A DNA stretch of 5,384 nucleotides, from assembly GCA_023432655.1 (NCBI GenBank), contig JAEYUK010000110.1, positions 1 to 5,384 on the forward strand. The letters run 5' to 3'. The stretch's first letter is position 1, and each line of letters begins with the position of its first letter. Of this stretch, positions 1-5,384 are shown one piece after another. The DNA is from Pseudomonadota bacterium (GTDB lineage Bacteria > Bdellovibrionota > Bacteriovoracia > Bacteriovoracales > Bacteriovoracaceae). The position numbers were made by a program, and so were the translations under genes. Below the pieces are notes generated by a model. It was not told the origin of the DNA. It was given only the letters and a program-made list of their open reading frames with translations, and did not search any database.

Positions 1-344
1 GTCAGATACAACGGCAAATGGCCCAAAAACGAATGCTCAACGATGTAAAATCGGCCGACGTAATTGTTACAAATCCGACACATATTAGTGTAGCATTGAA
101 GTATGATGGACAAACGATGGTGGCACCGGCGGTAATGGCAAAAGGTGCCGATCATTTGGCGCTTCGAATCCGTGAGATTGCGAAGGAGAATGATATACCC
201 ATTGTGGAAAACATTATGCTCGCCCGGACCTTATATAAGACAGTCAAAGTGGGGCATGGAGTTCCACGAACGTTGTATAAAGCGGTGGCAGAGATACTAA
301 GCTTTGTTTACAAATTGAAGCGTAAACAAAAAGCTTTAAAATAG
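1..344 (+). CDS. flhB: Flagellar export switch protein FlhB, C-terminal part (5' truncated)
   Basis: FlhB is a membrane protein of the flagellar type III export apparatus whose cytoplasmic domain switches secretion from rod/hook to filament substrates. Only the cytoplasmic C-terminal domain is visible. The frame is open from base 3, with 113 codons up to the TAG at 342-344, so the true start lies upstream; the ATG at 18 is an internal Met in the conserved RQIQRQMAQKRM helix. The diagnostic autocleavage motif NPTH is encoded at 72-83, where the family cleaves between Asn and Pro, preceded by ADVIVT and followed by HISVALKYD as in typical FlhB/YscU proteins. The later block around IPIVENIMLARTLYK is also conserved. 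The tail ends in a basic stretch (KLKRKQKALK) without a long extension. flhA follows 40 nt downstream, probably in the same transcript. The NPTH motif and the neighbour flhA make a non-flagellar YscU homologue unlikely. Confidence 0.96.
   Translation, partial: QIQRQMAQKRMLNDVKSADVIVTNPTHISVALKYDGQTMVAPAVMAKGADHLALRIREIAKENDIPIVENIMLARTLYKTVKVGHGVPRTLYKAVAEILSFVYKLKRKQKALK
299..336 (+). repeat. Inverted repeat at the 3' end of flhB
   Basis: A perfect 9-bp inverted repeat, TTTGTTTAC (303-311) and GTAAACAAA (322-330), encloses a 10-nt loop. AAGC (299-302) and GCTT (333-336) can extend the stem beyond a 2-nt bulge. It lies inside the last codons of flhB. The stem is AT-rich and only a short TTTT (345-348) follows after the stop codon, so it is a weak candidate for an attenuator or RNA-stability element rather than a convincing terminator. 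Confidence 0.4.
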
Positions 345-384: not shown

Positions 385-2460
385 ATGGACAGGTTTTTTG
401 AAAAGCTAAAAGTCTTTTCTCAAAATTCAGAACTAGCACTGGCCTTCGGATTAATTATCATCTTAGGTGTGATGGTTGTTCCGTTGCCTCCAGTTATCCT
501 GGATTTGTTTCTTGCCTTCTCGATAGCCATTTCCATTGGCATTCTTTTAATGTCCATTTACGCCAGAAAGCCTCTGGATTTTTCTACTTTCCCTTCTGTC
601 CTTTTGATCACGACTCTCTTGAGATTATCTTTGAACGTGGCTTCTACTCGTAACATTCTTCTTAATGGAGCGACCGAGGGAACGAAGGCTGCTGGTCATA
701 TTATTGAAGCCTTTGGGGAGTTCGTCGTTGGCGGTAACTTCGCAGTCGGTATCATCATTTTCATGATCCTGGTGGTGATTAACTTTATCGTTATCACTAA
801 AGGTGCTGGACGAGTTGCTGAAGTAAGTGCTCGCTTCACCTTGGATGCAATGCCTGGTAAGCAGATGGCGATTGATGCTGATTTAAATGCTGGACTGATT
901 GATGACAAAGAGGCCAAACGCCGTCGTGCTGAGGTCGCTCAAGAAGCAGATTTCTATGGATCGATGGATGGTGCTTCGAAGTTCGTTCGCGGAGACGCCA
1001 TTGCGGGGATTTTAATTACCGTTATCAATATTATTGGTGGAATCATCATTGGAGTTGCTCAGCAAGATATGTCTTTTGGAGATGCTTCCCGAACTTTCAC
1101 CTTATTAACTGTGGGTGATGGTCTTATCGCCCAGATTCCTGCCCTGATTATCTCAACTGCGGCCGGTATTATTACTACCCGTAATACGAGTTCAGATGCT
1201 CTGGGTGAACAGGTTAATAAAGAGTTTGGTGCTCATCCTAAAGCTTTTTATATTACGGCGGGCGCCATTGCTGTTTTCGGTTTGATCCCAGGATTTCCTG
1301 GCCTTCCTTTTATGATGATCGGCGGTTTGATTGCCTTTACCGGTTTTAAAATCGAGAAGAATAAAGAGCACGCCAAGGCCCAGGAAGTTTCGAATGCTGT
1401 TAATGAAACTAAAGCGAAAGTGGAAACGCTGGAGTCTCTGCTCCCCGTGGAGCTGGTGCAGTTAGAAGTTGGTTATGGAATTGTCAGTATTGTCGATGCT
1501 GAACAGAATGGAGACCTTCTGGAGCGCATCTCTCATATCCGTAAACAGTTCGCCTTGGATTGGGGGATCATCCTGCCTTCGGTCCGTATTAAAGATAACC
1601 TTGAACTTAAGCCAGGTGGATATTCCATCAAGCTTAAAGGTCTGGAGATCGCTAAGGGCGAACTTATGCCAGATCATATGATGGCGATGGACCCAGGAAC
1701 CGTGATTGAGCAGATGGAAGGGATTGAAACTAAAGAGCCAGTCTTTGGACTTCCGGCCATCTGGATCACTGATGATCGTAAAGATGAAGCCCAATACAAT
1801 GGTTATACCGTCGTTGACCTGTCAACGATTGTGGCCACTCATTTAACGGAAGTACTTAAGGCCCATCTCTCTGAACTCTTTGGTCGTCAGGAACTGGTCA
1901 ATGTTCTGGAGAATTTTAAAGAGAATAATCCAAAGATTGTTTCCGATCTGGTGCCAGACATTATGCCGCTTGGTACTGTGCTTAAGGTTCTTCAGAGTCT
2001 CCTGCGTGAAGGAGTTTCTGTCAGAGATTTACGTACAATTCTTGAAACTCTTGCCGAATTTGGACCTTCTTCAAAAGATCCGGAAGCGCTTACTGAATAT
2101 GTTCGTCAGGCCCTCTATAGGACCATTACTGAGAAGATCAAAGGCTCTCAGGGTGATGTCCCTCTCTTTACTCTTGACCGCAGTCTTGAGGAAGCAGTGG
2201 CCCGCTCCATTATTCACACTGACCATGGTTCACAATTAAATCTAGATCCGAAAGTAACTCAGACTATCCTGGCCTCTCTCAATGAGAAGATTGAAGAAGC
2301 AACTTCCCAAGGGGAGAAGATGGTTGTTCTTTGTTCACCGGTGATCCGCCGTCATTTCAAGAGGTTGACTGAAAAATTCATTCCCAACATGATAGTGGTA
2401 AGCCATAATGAACTAAGTCCAGAAGTTAACATCAGATCTCTCGGTACCGTGAGGTTATAA
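385..2460 (+). CDS. flhA: Flagellar export gate protein FlhA
   Basis: FlhA forms the nonameric export gate of the flagellar type III secretion system. Its membrane part takes part in proton-driven export and its cytoplasmic ring docks chaperone-substrate complexes. The 691-residue length is normal for the family. About eight hydrophobic segments fall near residues 16-34, 37-59, 69-88, 113-137, 204-224, 240-263, 287-303 and 305-322. Between the fourth and fifth lies the highly conserved FHIPEP cytoplasmic loop (about 138-203), with ARFTLDAMPGKQMAIDADL and KRRRAEV. RLSLNVASTR (80-89) matches the family signature region. Asp204 in FVRGDAIAGI corresponds to the functionally important Asp208 of Salmonella FlhA. 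A linker (about 323-355) leads to the cytoplasmic domain (about 356-691). The start is supported by GAGGAG 5 nt upstream. flhF begins 3 nt after the stop, implying one transcript and probably coupled translation. The flhF/flhG/fliA context makes it flagellar rather than an injectisome homologue. Confidence 0.98.
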   Translation: MDRFFEKLKVFSQNSELALAFGLIIILGVMVVPLPPVILDLFLAFSIAISIGILLMSIYARKPLDFSTFPSVLLITTLLRLSLNVASTRNILLNGATEGTKAAGHIIEAFGEFVVGGNFAVGIIIFMILVVINFIVITKGAGRVAEVSARFTLDAMPGKQMAIDADLNAGLIDDKEAKRRRAEVAQEADFYGSMDGASKFVRGDAIAGILITVINIIGGIIIGVAQQDMSFGDASRTFTLLTVGDGLIAQIPALIISTAAGIITTRNTSSDALGEQVNKEFGAHPKAFYITAGAIAVFGLIPGFPGLPFMMIGGLIAFTGFKIEKNKEHAKAQEVSNAVNETKAKVETLESLLPVELVQLEVGYGIVSIVDAEQNGDLLERISHIRKQFALDWGIILPSVRIKDNLELKPGGYSIKLKGLEIAKGELMPDHMMAMDPGTVIEQMEGIETKEPVFGLPAIWITDDRKDEAQYNGYTVVDLSTIVATHLTEVLKAHLSELFGRQELVNVLENFKENNPKIVSDLVPDIMPLGTVLKVLQSLLREGVSVRDLRTILETLAEFGPSSKDPEALTEYVRQALYRTITEKIKGSQGDVPLFTLDRSLEEAVARSIIHTDHGSQLNLDPKVTQTILASLNEKIEEATSQGEKMVVLCSPVIRRHFKRLTEKFIPNMIVVSHNELSPEVNIRSLGTVRL
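2451..2454 (+). promoter_or_regulatory. Ribosome binding site of flhF inside the flhA 3' end
   Basis: GAGG lies within the last codons of flhA, 9 nt before the flhF ATG at 2464. The site is short and lies in translated sequence, so flhF translation probably depends on ribosomes finishing flhA. Confidence 0.55.
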
Positions 2461-2463
2461 AGA

Positions 2464-4008
2464 ATGTTCGTCAAGAAGTTCGAAGCTGATACATTGGAAG
2501 AAGCGCTTAAAGCAGTAAAACTTGAGCTGGGCCCTGATGCGATTATTTTAAAAACAATTACCAATAATGGTCTTAAAGGTGCGTTTAAGAAAAAGCGCAT
2601 CGAGATCACAGCGGCCATCTCAGAGAGAAGCTTTGAGAAGAAGGCAAAGGTGGATAAAGTTTTGAACAGCGAACAAAAAGAAGCTTTTTACCAAAAGCCT
2701 GCTTCTACCATCAAAGAGTCCATCCAGAAATACAATAGTCATGATACCTCGTCGGGAGGAGGCTACGGCAGCATGGGACTCAACCGTGTGGTTAATACCA
2801 TTGCCAAAGGGTCTGCGGGACTCGCTGATATGACGACGAAGACTTCATCGCTCATTAAAAATACACTCGATGATTTTTTAACAGAAGAAGACGAAGGATT
2901 TGATATCGATTCAGCGGATGAAACACCGGCCCCTGCTCCTCGCAATACGAATCGCGGGAAGTATGCTGAACCACCTCATGAAGAAGTTCGTGAGATGAGA
3001 GAACCACGTCGTCCCAGAACGGTTGTAGAAGACTCGGTTGATGTTGGTAGAAATCAAACTCGAGAGACTACACCAGCTGCAGGTCCTGCTTCGGCCATGG
3101 GAATGGTGAGCCGTGAAGCTTACAACGAACTTAAGCAGGAACTCAGAACAACTCAAAATAAAATGGAGCTTTTGGAACAAAAGATCCTGGAACTTTCTCA
3201 GAACTACCAGTTTAATCAAAAACATTTGAATGAGGCGAAAGGCATTTTTCAGCTTCGTACGACACTGAAAACTTTAGATGTAGATGAGTCTCACATTCTG
3301 GAACTGATAAAAAAAGCTAACTATGAACTTTCTAAAGATGATTTAGAAAATCCAGACATCGTTTTTGAGTTTGCTCTTCAAGAGATGGCAAGTTCCATTA
3401 ATACCGGTATCCCTTTGTTCGCTAAAATTGAAAATGGCGATCCGGTGATCACTGTTTTGGTTTCTGAAGCGGCTTCTGGACAAAGTACAATGGGTACAAA
3501 GATTGCAGTATTAAAAAAAGATGTCGTCTTAGTTCAGTACTCGCAAGATGCTCAAAATAACGCCTCCACAGATTTTGCTGCCCAGGTGTTTGGAATCAAG
3601 GTTGAAAAGGTTCAAAACTTTTCCGAAGTCATAGGCATTTGTCGTAAAGCTACGGAAGCGGGAAAATCTGTCCTGGTAGATATCCGGCTAGGGAACAGGT
3701 TTTCTGATGAAACAAAAAAATTCATTGAGACGCTCAAACGTGGTTTCCATCATGTAGAGGTTTTATGCACGCTTTCAGCGATTCACTCTGAAATTTATAA
3801 TCGAAAAATAATTGCCCGATACAAGGACATTGTAGATGGTGTTATCATTTCACATGTGGATCTTTGTATGAACTTTGGAGCACTCTTCAATGTTCACAAG
3901 GCCCACAACAAGCTTCCTCTCAAATTTTTCGGAACAGGACCAGTGGTGCCGGATGATATTGAAGGAGCAACAGCTGAAAGATTGATGTCAGGTCTATTTC
4001 AGTTTTAA
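2464..4008 (+). CDS. flhF: FlhF-family flagellar placement protein with degenerate GTPase motifs
   Basis: FlhF is an SRP-type GTPase that recruits early flagellar parts to the cell pole. Three things support the family: the N-terminus (MFVKKFEADTLEEALKAVK, then LGPDAIIL), the C-terminus (VDGVII, FGALFN, VPDDIEGATAERL), and the position between flhA and flhG. Residues about 55-215 form a low-complexity linker with a Gly-rich patch (97-103), acidic stretch (141-149), Ala-Pro run (155-159) and Arg-rich segment (175-185). About 216-260 looks like a coiled coil. The NG-like region spans about 260-514. Its nucleotide-binding motifs are lost. At the P-loop, S334-EAASGQST replaces GPTGVGKTT, with Gln340 in place of the Lys. 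DTYR is replaced around residues 360-363, DTAG reads DIRL (406-409) and TKLD reads SHVD (463-466). The frame is uninterrupted, with hydrophobic strands preserved, so this looks like a selected pseudo-GTPase rather than a decaying gene. At 514 residues it is longer than many FlhF proteins. Family assignment is strong; loss of GTP binding is inferred from motifs. Confidence 0.9.
   Translation: MFVKKFEADTLEEALKAVKLELGPDAIILKTITNNGLKGAFKKKRIEITAAISERSFEKKAKVDKVLNSEQKEAFYQKPASTIKESIQKYNSHDTSSGGGYGSMGLNRVVNTIAKGSAGLADMTTKTSSLIKNTLDDFLTEEDEGFDIDSADETPAPAPRNTNRGKYAEPPHEEVREMREPRRPRTVVEDSVDVGRNQTRETTPAAGPASAMGMVSREAYNELKQELRTTQNKMELLEQKILELSQNYQFNQKHLNEAKGIFQLRTTLKTLDVDESHILELIKKANYELSKDDLENPDIVFEFALQEMASSINTGIPLFAKIENGDPVITVLVSEAASGQSTMGTKIAVLKKDVVLVQYSQDAQNNASTDFAAQVFGIKVEKVQNFSEVIGICRKATEAGKSVLVDIRLGNRFSDETKKFIETLKRGFHHVEVLCTLSAIHSEIYNRKIIARYKDIVDGVIISHVDLCMNFGALFNVHKAHNKLPLKFFGTGPVVPDDIEGATAERLMSGLFQF
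3463..3489 (+). other. Degenerate P-loop (G1) of FlhF
   Basis: Codons 334-342 read S-E-A-A-S-G-Q-S-T where FlhF and other SRP GTPases have G-P-T-G-V-G-K-T-T. The flanks align on both sides: VLV before it, and MGTKIA after it against TIAKLA. The catalytic Lys is replaced by Gln (CAA at 3481-3483) and the first and fourth positions have lost Gly. The rest of the nucleotide pocket is also altered, so this is not a single sequencing error. Confidence 0.75.
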
Positions 4009-4073: not shown

Positions 4074-4952
4074 ATGCACAAGACCAGCGAGTGGTTACAG
4101 TCGTTCAGCACTCACAGCAAATCTTTGAAGAATTCAGATTTACGACGGGCCAGTGATTTTGCTTGCACCAAGGTATCTATCACTGGTGGGAAGGGTGGAG
4201 TAGGAAAGACCTCTATCGCTCTTAAAATGGCCCAGGAACTCGCCATTACCGGTCACCGTACACTCTTAATCGATTGCGATTCAAATCTTTCAAATACGGC
4301 GATTAAACTCGGCCTGCCTCTGGATAATAAATTTGAAAAAGTTCTTTCAGGTGAAGCTTCTTTGCAGGAATGTATTATCCAGCGAGGAAACTTTCATCTA
4401 CTTCCCGCCTGCAATGGCTCGGTAGAAGTTTTCGAGTCAAAACTTAACTTTGATGAAATCATCATCGATATCATCACTTCTCATGAACATGAGTACGATT
4501 ACATTATTCTGGACTGCCCGGCCGGAGCAGGACGAGAAATTCTCACTCTAAATGCTTATTGTGATCACCGCTGGATCGTGGTGACGCCGGATAAATCTTC
4601 CATCACTGACTCCTACTCAATGGTTAAACTCCTTTCCCAGCGGTTTGGAATCAAAGATAACCATTTATTGGTCAACATGTACCAGTCAGAAAAACAGTTC
4701 CAGAAAGTGGTGCTTACCCTGAGTGAAACGATCGAGAATTTCCTCGGTGCCCGCACCAATATCCTGGGCGGAATCCCTAAACTCGATGTTTCCTCCGAAG
4801 GATTTGATACTTTTTTCCTATCTGAAAACAAAAATGAGTTTCATCGCAACTTCGTTAAACTTTTATATGGATTCACCGAAAAAGTGGGTGGACCACTGAA
4901 TGTTCCCCAACAGGGCACACAACAGTTGGCCTATGAACACGATGTTCACTAA
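4074..4952 (+). CDS. flhG: Flagellar number regulator FlhG (FleN/YlxH), MinD/ParA-type ATPase
   Basis: FlhG is a MinD-like ATPase that limits flagellar number, acting on FlhF and on assembly of the basal-body C-ring. The ATPase motifs are intact. The deviant Walker A is KGGVGKTS (residues 40-47, with signature Lys40 and Lys45). The Walker A' Asp pair is in LLIDCDSNLSN (Asp67, Asp69), and Walker B is in DYIILDCPAG (Asp147). VVTPDKSSITDSYSMVK (169-185) is the characteristic FleN/FlhG block. GGIPKLDVSSEGF (232-244) and the following segment (about 254-270, EFHRNFVKLLYGFTEK) may form the C-terminal membrane-targeting helix seen in this family. The 292-residue length is normal. Two departures stand out: the Walker A' reads DCDSNLSN rather than the usual DADLGLAN, and the N-terminal extension (1-33) lacks the DQAxxLR FlhF-activating motif. 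It sits 65 nt after flhF and 24 nt before fliA. Identity is secure over ParA or MinD because of the neighbours. Confidence 0.94.
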   Translation: MHKTSEWLQSFSTHSKSLKNSDLRRASDFACTKVSITGGKGGVGKTSIALKMAQELAITGHRTLLIDCDSNLSNTAIKLGLPLDNKFEKVLSGEASLQECIIQRGNFHLLPACNGSVEVFESKLNFDEIIIDIITSHEHEYDYIILDCPAGAGREILTLNAYCDHRWIVVTPDKSSITDSYSMVKLLSQRFGIKDNHLLVNMYQSEKQFQKVVLTLSETIENFLGARTNILGGIPKLDVSSEGFDTFFLSENKNEFHRNFVKLLYGFTEKVGGPLNVPQQGTQQLAYEHDVH

Positions 4953-4976: not shown

Positions 4977-5384
4977 ATGTCATCACTCACGGCCAAACTA
5001 AAAAATTTAAAAGATTATCGCTCTACGGTTGATCCGAAAGTAAAAGATGAAATCATTCTGGAGTACGCTCCGCTCGTGCGCTATATCGCTCAGAAGATTG
5101 CTTCGCGTCTGCCGCCGAATATTGAACTCGATGACATGATTTCATGCGGAGTCATTGGACTCATGGACGCTATCGAAAAGTTCGATCCATCTCGCGATAA
5201 TAAATTTAAAACATATGCTGAATTCCGTATTCGTGGGGCGATCCTCGATGAACTTCGCTCTCAAGACTGGGTTCCTCGCTCTGTTCGTGAAAAAGCCAAA
5301 ATTGTAGAGAAGGCCTACGCCAAGCTTGAAAAAGATTTCGGCCGTCCGGCAACTGATGAAGAGATGTGTGAGCATCTTCAATGT
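4977..5384 (+). CDS. fliA: Flagellar sigma factor FliA (sigma-28), N-terminal part (3' truncated)
   Basis: FliA is the alternative sigma factor of the FliA/WhiG group that directs RNA polymerase to late flagellar promoters. The first 136 codons are visible and remain open to the window edge. Residues 27-46 (ILEYAPLVRYIAQKIASRLP) correspond to region 2.1. Residues 51-105 (LDDMISCGVIGLMDAIEKFD, then KFKTYAEFRIRGAILDELRSQDWVPRSVRE) are the core-binding and -10 recognition regions 2.2-2.4, with the RIRGAILDELR...DWVPR block diagnostic of this group. Residues 110-134 (YAKLEKDFGRPATDEEM) begin region 3. Region 4, for -35 recognition, lies beyond the window. The start is supported by AAGGAG 8 nt upstream and by the alignment of region 2. 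The gene follows flhG by 24 nt, a spacing typical of co-transcription. An anti-sigma partner (FlgM) is not visible here. Confidence 0.96.
   Translation, partial: MSSLTAKLKNLKDYRSTVDPKVKDEIILEYAPLVRYIAQKIASRLPPNIELDDMISCGVIGLMDAIEKFDPSRDNKFKTYAEFRIRGAILDELRSQDWVPRSVREKAKIVEKAYAKLEKDFGRPATDEEMCEHLQC

Follow-up and report, generated by a model that had tools for sequence, protein, structure and literature searches.

An FlhF with a remodelled GTP site is a predicted pseudo-GTPase throughout a lineage of Bdellovibrionota

The stretch of DNA analysed here, which we call the window, comprises 5,384 nucleotides from a Bacteriovoracaceae bacterium (contig JAEYUK010000110.1 of assembly GCA_023432655.1). 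All of its genes lie on the plus strand, in the order flhB-flhA-flhF-flhG-fliA. Our subject is the flhF-derived gene, whose product has the gene place and predicted fold of the flagellar protein FlhF but has lost most of its GTPase motifs and is predicted to be a pseudo-GTPase. The genes are:

3..344, plus strand: 3' part of flhB (FlhB/YscU family; Pfam PF01312, E 7.7e-48); the 5' end lies beyond the window
385..2460, plus strand: flhA, flagellar export gate (TIGR01398, 910 bits against a cut-off of 772)
2464..4008, plus strand: flhF-derived gene, predicted pseudo-GTPase of 514 amino acids (intact frame; SRP54 E 9e-07; predicted fold)
4074..4952, plus strand: flhG, MinD-type ATPase of 292 amino acids (AAA_31 E 4.2e-19; MinD models stay under their cut-offs)
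4977..5384, plus strand: 5' part of fliA, sigma-28 type (Sigma70_r2 E 4.1e-17; FliA/WhiG models); the 3' end lies beyond the window

The position flhA-flhF-flhG-fliA is that of an FlhF gene. The closest named relative of the product comes from another Bacteriovoracaceae bacterium (L001; 95% identity over residues 1-514). Pfam SRP54 matches residues 376-512 with 29.2 bits (cut-off 22.7). The curated FlhF model NCBIfam TIGR03499 matches residues 1-292 with 54.1 bits, below its equivalog cut-off of 174.15, and a search of the PDB with the protein sequence gave no useful match (best E 0.51). Structure modelling predicts an NG fold of the signal recognition particle (SRP) type at the C-terminus, as expected of the FlhF family. 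Because the input for the first model included eight Bdellovibrio-type FlhFs with a P-loop Lys, the protein was refolded without these eight; in the second model, the predicted local distance difference test score is below 50 at residues 337-340 and 490-514. By descent, gene place and predicted fold the protein is an FlhF, whereas by curated model and motifs it lies outside the FlhF GTPase family as defined; we therefore describe it as an FlhF-derived predicted pseudo-GTPase.

For comparison, FlhF frames were taken from 212 of 213 loci (L032 yielded none) and from the window, and the 180 distinct ones were aligned. One hundred of them group with the window by similarity and are called the lineage; the remaining 80 are other FlhFs of the phylum Bdellovibrionota. 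The split rests on similarity to the window protein and on the search that yielded each sequence; the P-loops of L001-L042 had already been seen when it was made, and FlhA trees built without FlhF reproduce it. The features of the window protein are:

2464..2619, plus strand: N-terminal beta-alpha-beta-beta unit (residues 1-52), resembling in both models the FliG interaction domain (FID) of Shewanella putrefaciens FlhF
2761..2880, plus strand: lineage-specific linker element GYGxxGLNK ... LDDFL (residues 100-139), defined by motif counts across the alignment
3112..3210, plus strand: long helix preceding the N domain (residues 217-249), a possible coiled coil; helical in both models
3226..3423, plus strand: N domain (residues 255-320); aligns with SRP NG structures from about residue 254
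3463..3489, plus strand: former G1/P-loop SEAASGQST (residues 334-342); Q340 in 99 of 99 readable sequences among the 100 of the lineage, Lys in 80 of 80 other FlhFs
3541..3585, plus strand: former G2/switch segment (residues 360-374), unconstrained (2.99 bits; the domain averages 1.84)
3679..3690, plus strand: former G3, DIRL (residues 406-409); Asp kept (D406 in 99 of 100)
3850..3861, plus strand: former G4, SHVD (residues 463-466); Asp kept (D466 in 99 of 99)
3925..3978, plus strand: former G5 loop together with the beginning of the C-terminal tail (residues 488-505), FFGTGPVVPDDIEGATAE; G492 and D498 invariant in 50 representatives

The original prediction had read the motif remnants of this one protein as SEAASGQST at 334-342, DIRL at 406-409 and SHVD at 463-466, with DTYR/EQL unrecognisable at about 360-374, and these readings are exact to the residue; the intact, full-length frame was likewise confirmed. 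Its claim that all nucleotide-binding motifs are lost stands for the P-loop Lys, G2, most of G3 and the G4 Lys, but not for the Asp residues of G3 and G4, the P-loop Gly and Ser/Thr, or the G5 loop, all of which are kept. Measured against the G1-G4 motifs of FlhF (GxxGxGKT, DTYR/EQL, DTAG and TKxD, forms seen in the other Bdellovibrionota sequences), only single residues remain.

The motif loss is lineage-wide and does not belong to one odd genome. The 99 sequences with Gln in place of the P-loop Lys come from 97 genomes (one of which, G009, contributes two copies) and from the window. No close relative with intact motifs was found in the alignment. A complete G3 motif occurs in none of the 100 lineage sequences, the G4 Lys in two (L102 and L197), and a loose G2 pattern in three (L100, L186 and L205). 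Besides the two Asp residues, the lineage keeps G339 (98/99), Ser or Thr at 341 (96/100) and G492 (98/98). A database search returned 857 FlhF relatives; the best 120 of these all have the SE...GQ form (120/120) and none has a canonical Walker A motif. An assembly error as the source of the Gln P-loop was rejected, given the same Gln in every readable lineage sequence and in all 120 of the database matches listed. Judged from these sequences, GTP hydrolysis has very likely been lost in the lineage FlhF, and the sequence gives no prediction of a GTP-dependent homodimer or of hydrolysis stimulated by FlhG.

Outside the G domain, the lineage protein combines retained and new elements. At the N-terminus, both models place strands near residues 2-8, 27-34 and 45-52 and a helix near 11-21, a predicted FID-like pattern; the FID of S. 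putrefaciens FlhF is described in the accessible part of PMC11236974. The helix at 217-249 is common to other FlhFs, and its hydrophobic positions 227, 234, 237, 241 and 244 are mostly kept. The linker element is new: GYG..LN[KR]-type sequences occur in 86 and LDDFL-type sequences in 95 of the 100 lineage proteins and in none of the 80 others, 55 of which have a YIDI-type element. Three short FlhFs (L108, L109 and L111; frames of 351-384 amino acids) keep the Gln P-loop and are missing the new linker element.

The altered domain is under purifying selection, with ratios of non-synonymous to synonymous substitution rates (dN/dS) of 0.010-0.083 for the G domain in 14 of 14 pairs. Conservation was measured in 50 representatives with NG identity below 70%. 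Q340, K346, D466, G492 and D498 do not vary at all, and G339, D406 and S334 hardly vary. Seven pocket positions have a mean of 0.40 bits, a value as low being reached in 1 of 20,000 random draws, and a wider set of 17 former motif positions has a mean of 1.02 bits, reached by 4 of 20,000 draws; both sets were chosen after the alignment had been seen. Since the G2 segment varies freely and the pocket residues are near-invariant, the switch and catalytic side has been lost, whereas strong constraint persists on the G4 Asp, the G5 loop and the remodelled P-loop. On this conservation pattern, the GTP site is altered, not erased. The proposal that the domain had become a nucleotide-independent scaffold is not borne out as it was written, since the pocket is not relaxed and the positions left in it rank with the domain's most conserved. 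The coordinated loss of motifs with a kept fold, proposed from the window alone, holds for the whole lineage: it forms one change on the independent FlhA tree, under purifying selection and with an NG fold in the models.

A second, canonical flhF had been named as a possible alternative source of the activity. The search covered 368 genomes of the phylum and scored, with the FlhF model, six candidates per genome from its first look. Among the 129 genomes of the lineage block (G001-G009 and G014-G133; the window's own genome is not among them), none encodes an FlhF over the curated cut-off, which is reached in 130 of the 368; therefore no canonical second copy was found, and a canonical FlhF doing the work elsewhere is rejected for these relatives. 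Searched with PF00448, nine lineage genomes each contain two strong SRP GTPases, presumably Ffh and FtsY; beyond these, the lineage FlhF itself is matched weakly if at all. In G008, the sequence of one of the two strong matches is divided between contigs. One Halobacteriovoraceae genome (G009) carries two flhF genes on different contigs (L028 and L073), both with the Gln P-loop.

The lineage FlhF was matched in 119 of the 129 genomes, and its P-loop could be read in 97 of those. For the other ten, a profile re-search again found no lineage FlhF. Nine of them (G040, G066, G076, G078, G082, G083, G117, G125 and G127) also yielded no FlhA and probably lack flagella or are incomplete; the tenth is G021, whose flhA is cut by the end of its contig. 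The lineage FlhF is thus present in every genome examined that has the flagellar export gate, one being cut by a contig end. In FlhA trees, a single branch with a support of 100 in the Shimodaira–Hasegawa-like approximate likelihood ratio test (SH-aLRT) separates the lineage in two samples: one took in 37 of the 94 lineage loci that had a usable FlhA, plus 50 of the 77 others, and the second took in 30 of 94 and 77 of 77. The simplest reading is that the FlhF change arose once, no later than the base of the class Bacteriovoracia, to which the genome block probably belongs, judging from its FlhFs, the list order and the named members among it. This class includes known predators, and its cultured members have a single polar flagellum. 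As a side observation, G001-G009 each encode one full FliG together with short stand-alone FliG_C frames of 143-160 amino acids (two in eight genomes, three in G009). In the open literature, with subscription papers mostly outside it, we found no paper on FlhF with Bacteriovorax and no report of the motif loss; PMC7188933, on Bdellovibrio, names FlhF only in a gene list in its accessible part.

The partner ATPase has changed as well. FlhF is reported to be stimulated by FlhG via the Gln of an N-terminal DQAxxLR helix (PMC12826062, accessible part). Two features of the window FlhG bear on this:

4074..4106, plus strand: FlhG N-terminus MHKTSEWLQSF, where the DQAxxLR enhancer helix would be; defined by [DEHNQS]WL motif counts
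4185..4211, plus strand: deviant Walker A motif GGKGGVGKT, intact (KGGVGK[ST] pattern)

An FlhG was read beside all but five of the 100 lineage FlhFs and all but 21 of the 80 others. DQAxxLR is missing from the window FlhG and occurs in 0 of the 95 lineage FlhGs (the N-terminus of L187 is masked), whereas a [DEHNQS]WL motif occurs in 89 of 95 and in 0 of 59 others. The MinD-type ATPase motif is retained, KGGVGK[ST] being present in 94 of 95. The exception, L021 (flhG at 7537-8439), has an altered Walker A motif (AGSPGSGKT) and no EWL motif, and adjoins an ordinary lineage FlhF. Among other Bdellovibrionota, DQAxxLR is found beside FlhFs with all four motifs in 9 of 11 FlhGs with a recognisable Walker A motif. 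There are 14 such fully canonical sequences with an FlhG, three of them without Walker A by pattern: L121 and L127 are apparent wrong frames, and L119 has DQAxxLR, so that counting it gives 10 of 12. Where G3 of FlhF is eroded and the G4 Lys kept, DQAxxLR is found in 3 of 15; where both G3 and G4 are eroded, in 0 of 30. Loss of the FlhG motif seems to track erosion of FlhF, clearly in raw counts but with few independent events. In the first FlhA tree, L113 and L116 (canonical FlhF, no DQAxxLR) were sister to the lineage (SH-aLRT 88); since the larger tree did not keep this placement, we do not conclude that loss of the FlhG motif came before the change in FlhF.

Compared with the known FlhF structures from Bacillus subtilis (2px0 and 2px3) and S. 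putrefaciens (8r9r), the lineage protein lacks the P-loop Lys, G2, most of G3 and the G4 Lys; it also differs from known FlhFs in scoring 54 bits against a cut-off of 174, in its new linker element and in an FlhG partner without DQAxxLR. Partly eroded motifs are also found elsewhere in the phylum. The Bdellovibrio-type FlhFs (L033-L042) have an eroded G3 and FlhGs without DQAxxLR beside them (10 sequences) but, unlike the lineage, keep the P-loop Lys. A second type (32 sequences between L125 and L178) has an eroded G3 and G4 and FlhGs without DQAxxLR beside it (30 sequences) but keeps the P-loop Lys and the G2 Gln. Both form FlhA-tree branches separate from the lineage, and erosion of FlhF catalysis seems to recur in Bdellovibrionota. 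The Bdellovibrio-type proteins are short, with a mostly DSPA-like G3 and a changed C-terminal tail, and the second type has a TxLD-like G4. In a third eroded branch (L177 and L179-L182), G2, G3 and G4 all go unrecognised by pattern, and the neighbourhood of the gene yielded no FlhG.

The lineage protein shares with pseudoGTPases a GTPase fold (here predicted), the loss of conserved motifs and retention under selection; the absence of GTP hydrolysis that also marks pseudoGTPases is predicted for it. In septin pseudoGTPases, CENP-M and the pseudoGTPase domains of p190RhoGAP, a GTPase fold likewise stays under selection after loss of catalytic motifs and serves as a protein-binding scaffold. Those named in the accessible parts of PMC10731463 and PMC10211241 are, unlike the lineage FlhF, eukaryotic and not of the SRP class. 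No pseudo-GTPase of the SRP class was found in the open literature, as judged mostly from listings. A parallel within FlhF itself is offered by hydrolysis-impaired mutants of Vibrio alginolyticus, V. cholerae and Pseudomonas aeruginosa, which are reported to show in the laboratory that placement can do without hydrolysis (PMC6092412 and PMC12713375, accessible parts). GTP binding is reported to be still needed in such mutants, whereas the change in the lineage is natural, fixed and reaches the binding site.

We favour, at somewhat better than even confidence, the explanation that the lineage FlhF is a pseudo-GTPase that tethers FliG constitutively to the cell pole and has no GTP cycle. FlhF of S. 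putrefaciens is reported to bind FliG through its N-terminal domain and HubP, a protein of the cell pole, through its NG domain, the latter whether or not GTP or GDP is present (PMC11236974, accessible part). A tether of this kind could do without a GTP cycle, and for this reason a constitutive one is proposed here. The FID-like unit would bind FliG, and the NG domain would dock at a polar landmark irrespective of nucleotide, as S. putrefaciens FlhF does with HubP. The former pocket, with the new Q340 and S334 and the old D406, K346, D466 and G5 loop, may serve as a fixed structural element holding the NG domain in a single state. The FlhG ATPase, with the EWL motif new to its N-terminus, would then take charge of release and numbering.

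Several observations weigh against a constitutive tether. Polar placement in Vibrio is held to need GTP binding (PMC6092412), and a GTP analogue favours FliG binding in P. aeruginosa (PMC12713375), as far as the accessible parts of these papers go. The strong conservation of the pocket relative to the rest of the domain would fit a bound ligand too. The independent-pairs test of the association between FlhG and FlhF motifs had one to three supported pairs, with which significance is unreachable. A single stop codon lies within the flhF match in G092 (L010/L058; TGA) and in G118 (L098; TAG), and therefore the frames are not clean in all relatives; the L010 frame also enters masked bases, and sequence error and real loss are both possible for the two stops. 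The FimV core of the HubP/FimV landmark (TIGR03505) was found in 0 of 9 lineage genomes, but it was missed in all 14 controls as well, and therefore nothing follows from the lineage result.

The main rival, which we regard as unlikely but in need of serious weighing, is a pseudo-GTPase in which a guanine nucleotide or some other small ligand is still bound but not hydrolysed, serving as a permanent structural cofactor or slow sensor; such a protein would depend on its ligand though not on hydrolysis. It draws on the pocket being among the most conserved positions and on the retention of D466, Ser/Thr341, D406 and the G5 loop. In V. alginolyticus FlhF, T306A and D439A are reported to abolish flagella, G299A, G304A, K305A, D377A and K437A to reduce them, and G380A to lower motility while hardly lowering flagellar number; T436M and E440K also abolish flagella (PMC6092412, accessible part). 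Mapped by motif, T306 and D439, the two positions essential to alanine substitution, correspond to S341 and D466, both kept in the lineage, and four of the six other alanine positions (G299, K305, G380 and K437) are lost. The comparison is small, however, and the tolerated G304 and D377 are kept too; the T436 equivalent is Ser or Thr in 88 of 100 lineage sequences, but that of E440, where a change to Lys abolishes flagella, is Glu in 2 of 100. Suggestive as it is, the mapping lacks significance, and E440 argues against a simple correspondence. Further against a bound ligand, the P-loop Lys, two of the three P-loop Gly residues and the whole G2 switch are gone, as is the G4 Lys motif in 98 of 100 sequences, and G2 is unconstrained. 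As the pocket is constrained and S341 and D466 are kept, a ligand-bound state without hydrolysis has to be reckoned with.

It is improbable that the NG domain has instead taken on a different role, for example restraining C-ring assembly at FliG or setting flagellar number, with placement resting on other proteins. The conserved new linker and the new FlhG N-terminus do indicate rewiring, and S. putrefaciens FlhF is reported to keep FliG from FliM/FliN (PMC11236974, accessible part); but the old task accounts at least equally well for the gene's occurrence together with the flagellar export gate, its retained operon position and the FID-like N-terminus. A decaying copy, or a canonical second FlhF that does the work, has next to no probability left: loss of catalytic motifs in a single protein looks alike at first sight and two relatives have internal stops, but low dN/dS in every pair, the uniform Gln and the lack of any FlhF over the cut-off contradict it for the relatives examined, and the pseudogene was rejected on the first two grounds.

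Extending the constitutive-tether proposal to FlhG, we tentatively suggest that the class runs the FlhF/FlhG switch with its GTPase half off. The GTP site would have been converted once to a near-invariant, non-catalytic site (S334, Q340, D406, K346, D466 and the G5 loop), the activating helix of FlhG would have been replaced by the EWL motif, the new linker would have taken over, and placement and release would be driven by the FlhG ATPase alone. If this is true, the SRP class would have its first natural pseudo-GTPase known to us, in a phylum where several branches show eroded FlhF catalysis.

The database name 'flagellar biosynthesis GTPase FlhF' is probably wrong on function in this lineage. 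S334, Q340, D406 and D466 make a short list of residues whose roles can be tested. More broadly, the need of FlhF for GTP in placing a polar flagellum is unsettled, the reported need differing by species (PMC6092412, PMC12826062 and PMC12713375, accessible parts). A lineage without the catalytic residues and the activator motif, which yet keeps the gene wherever the export gate is found in the genomes examined (cut by a contig end in one), would be a natural experiment on that need.
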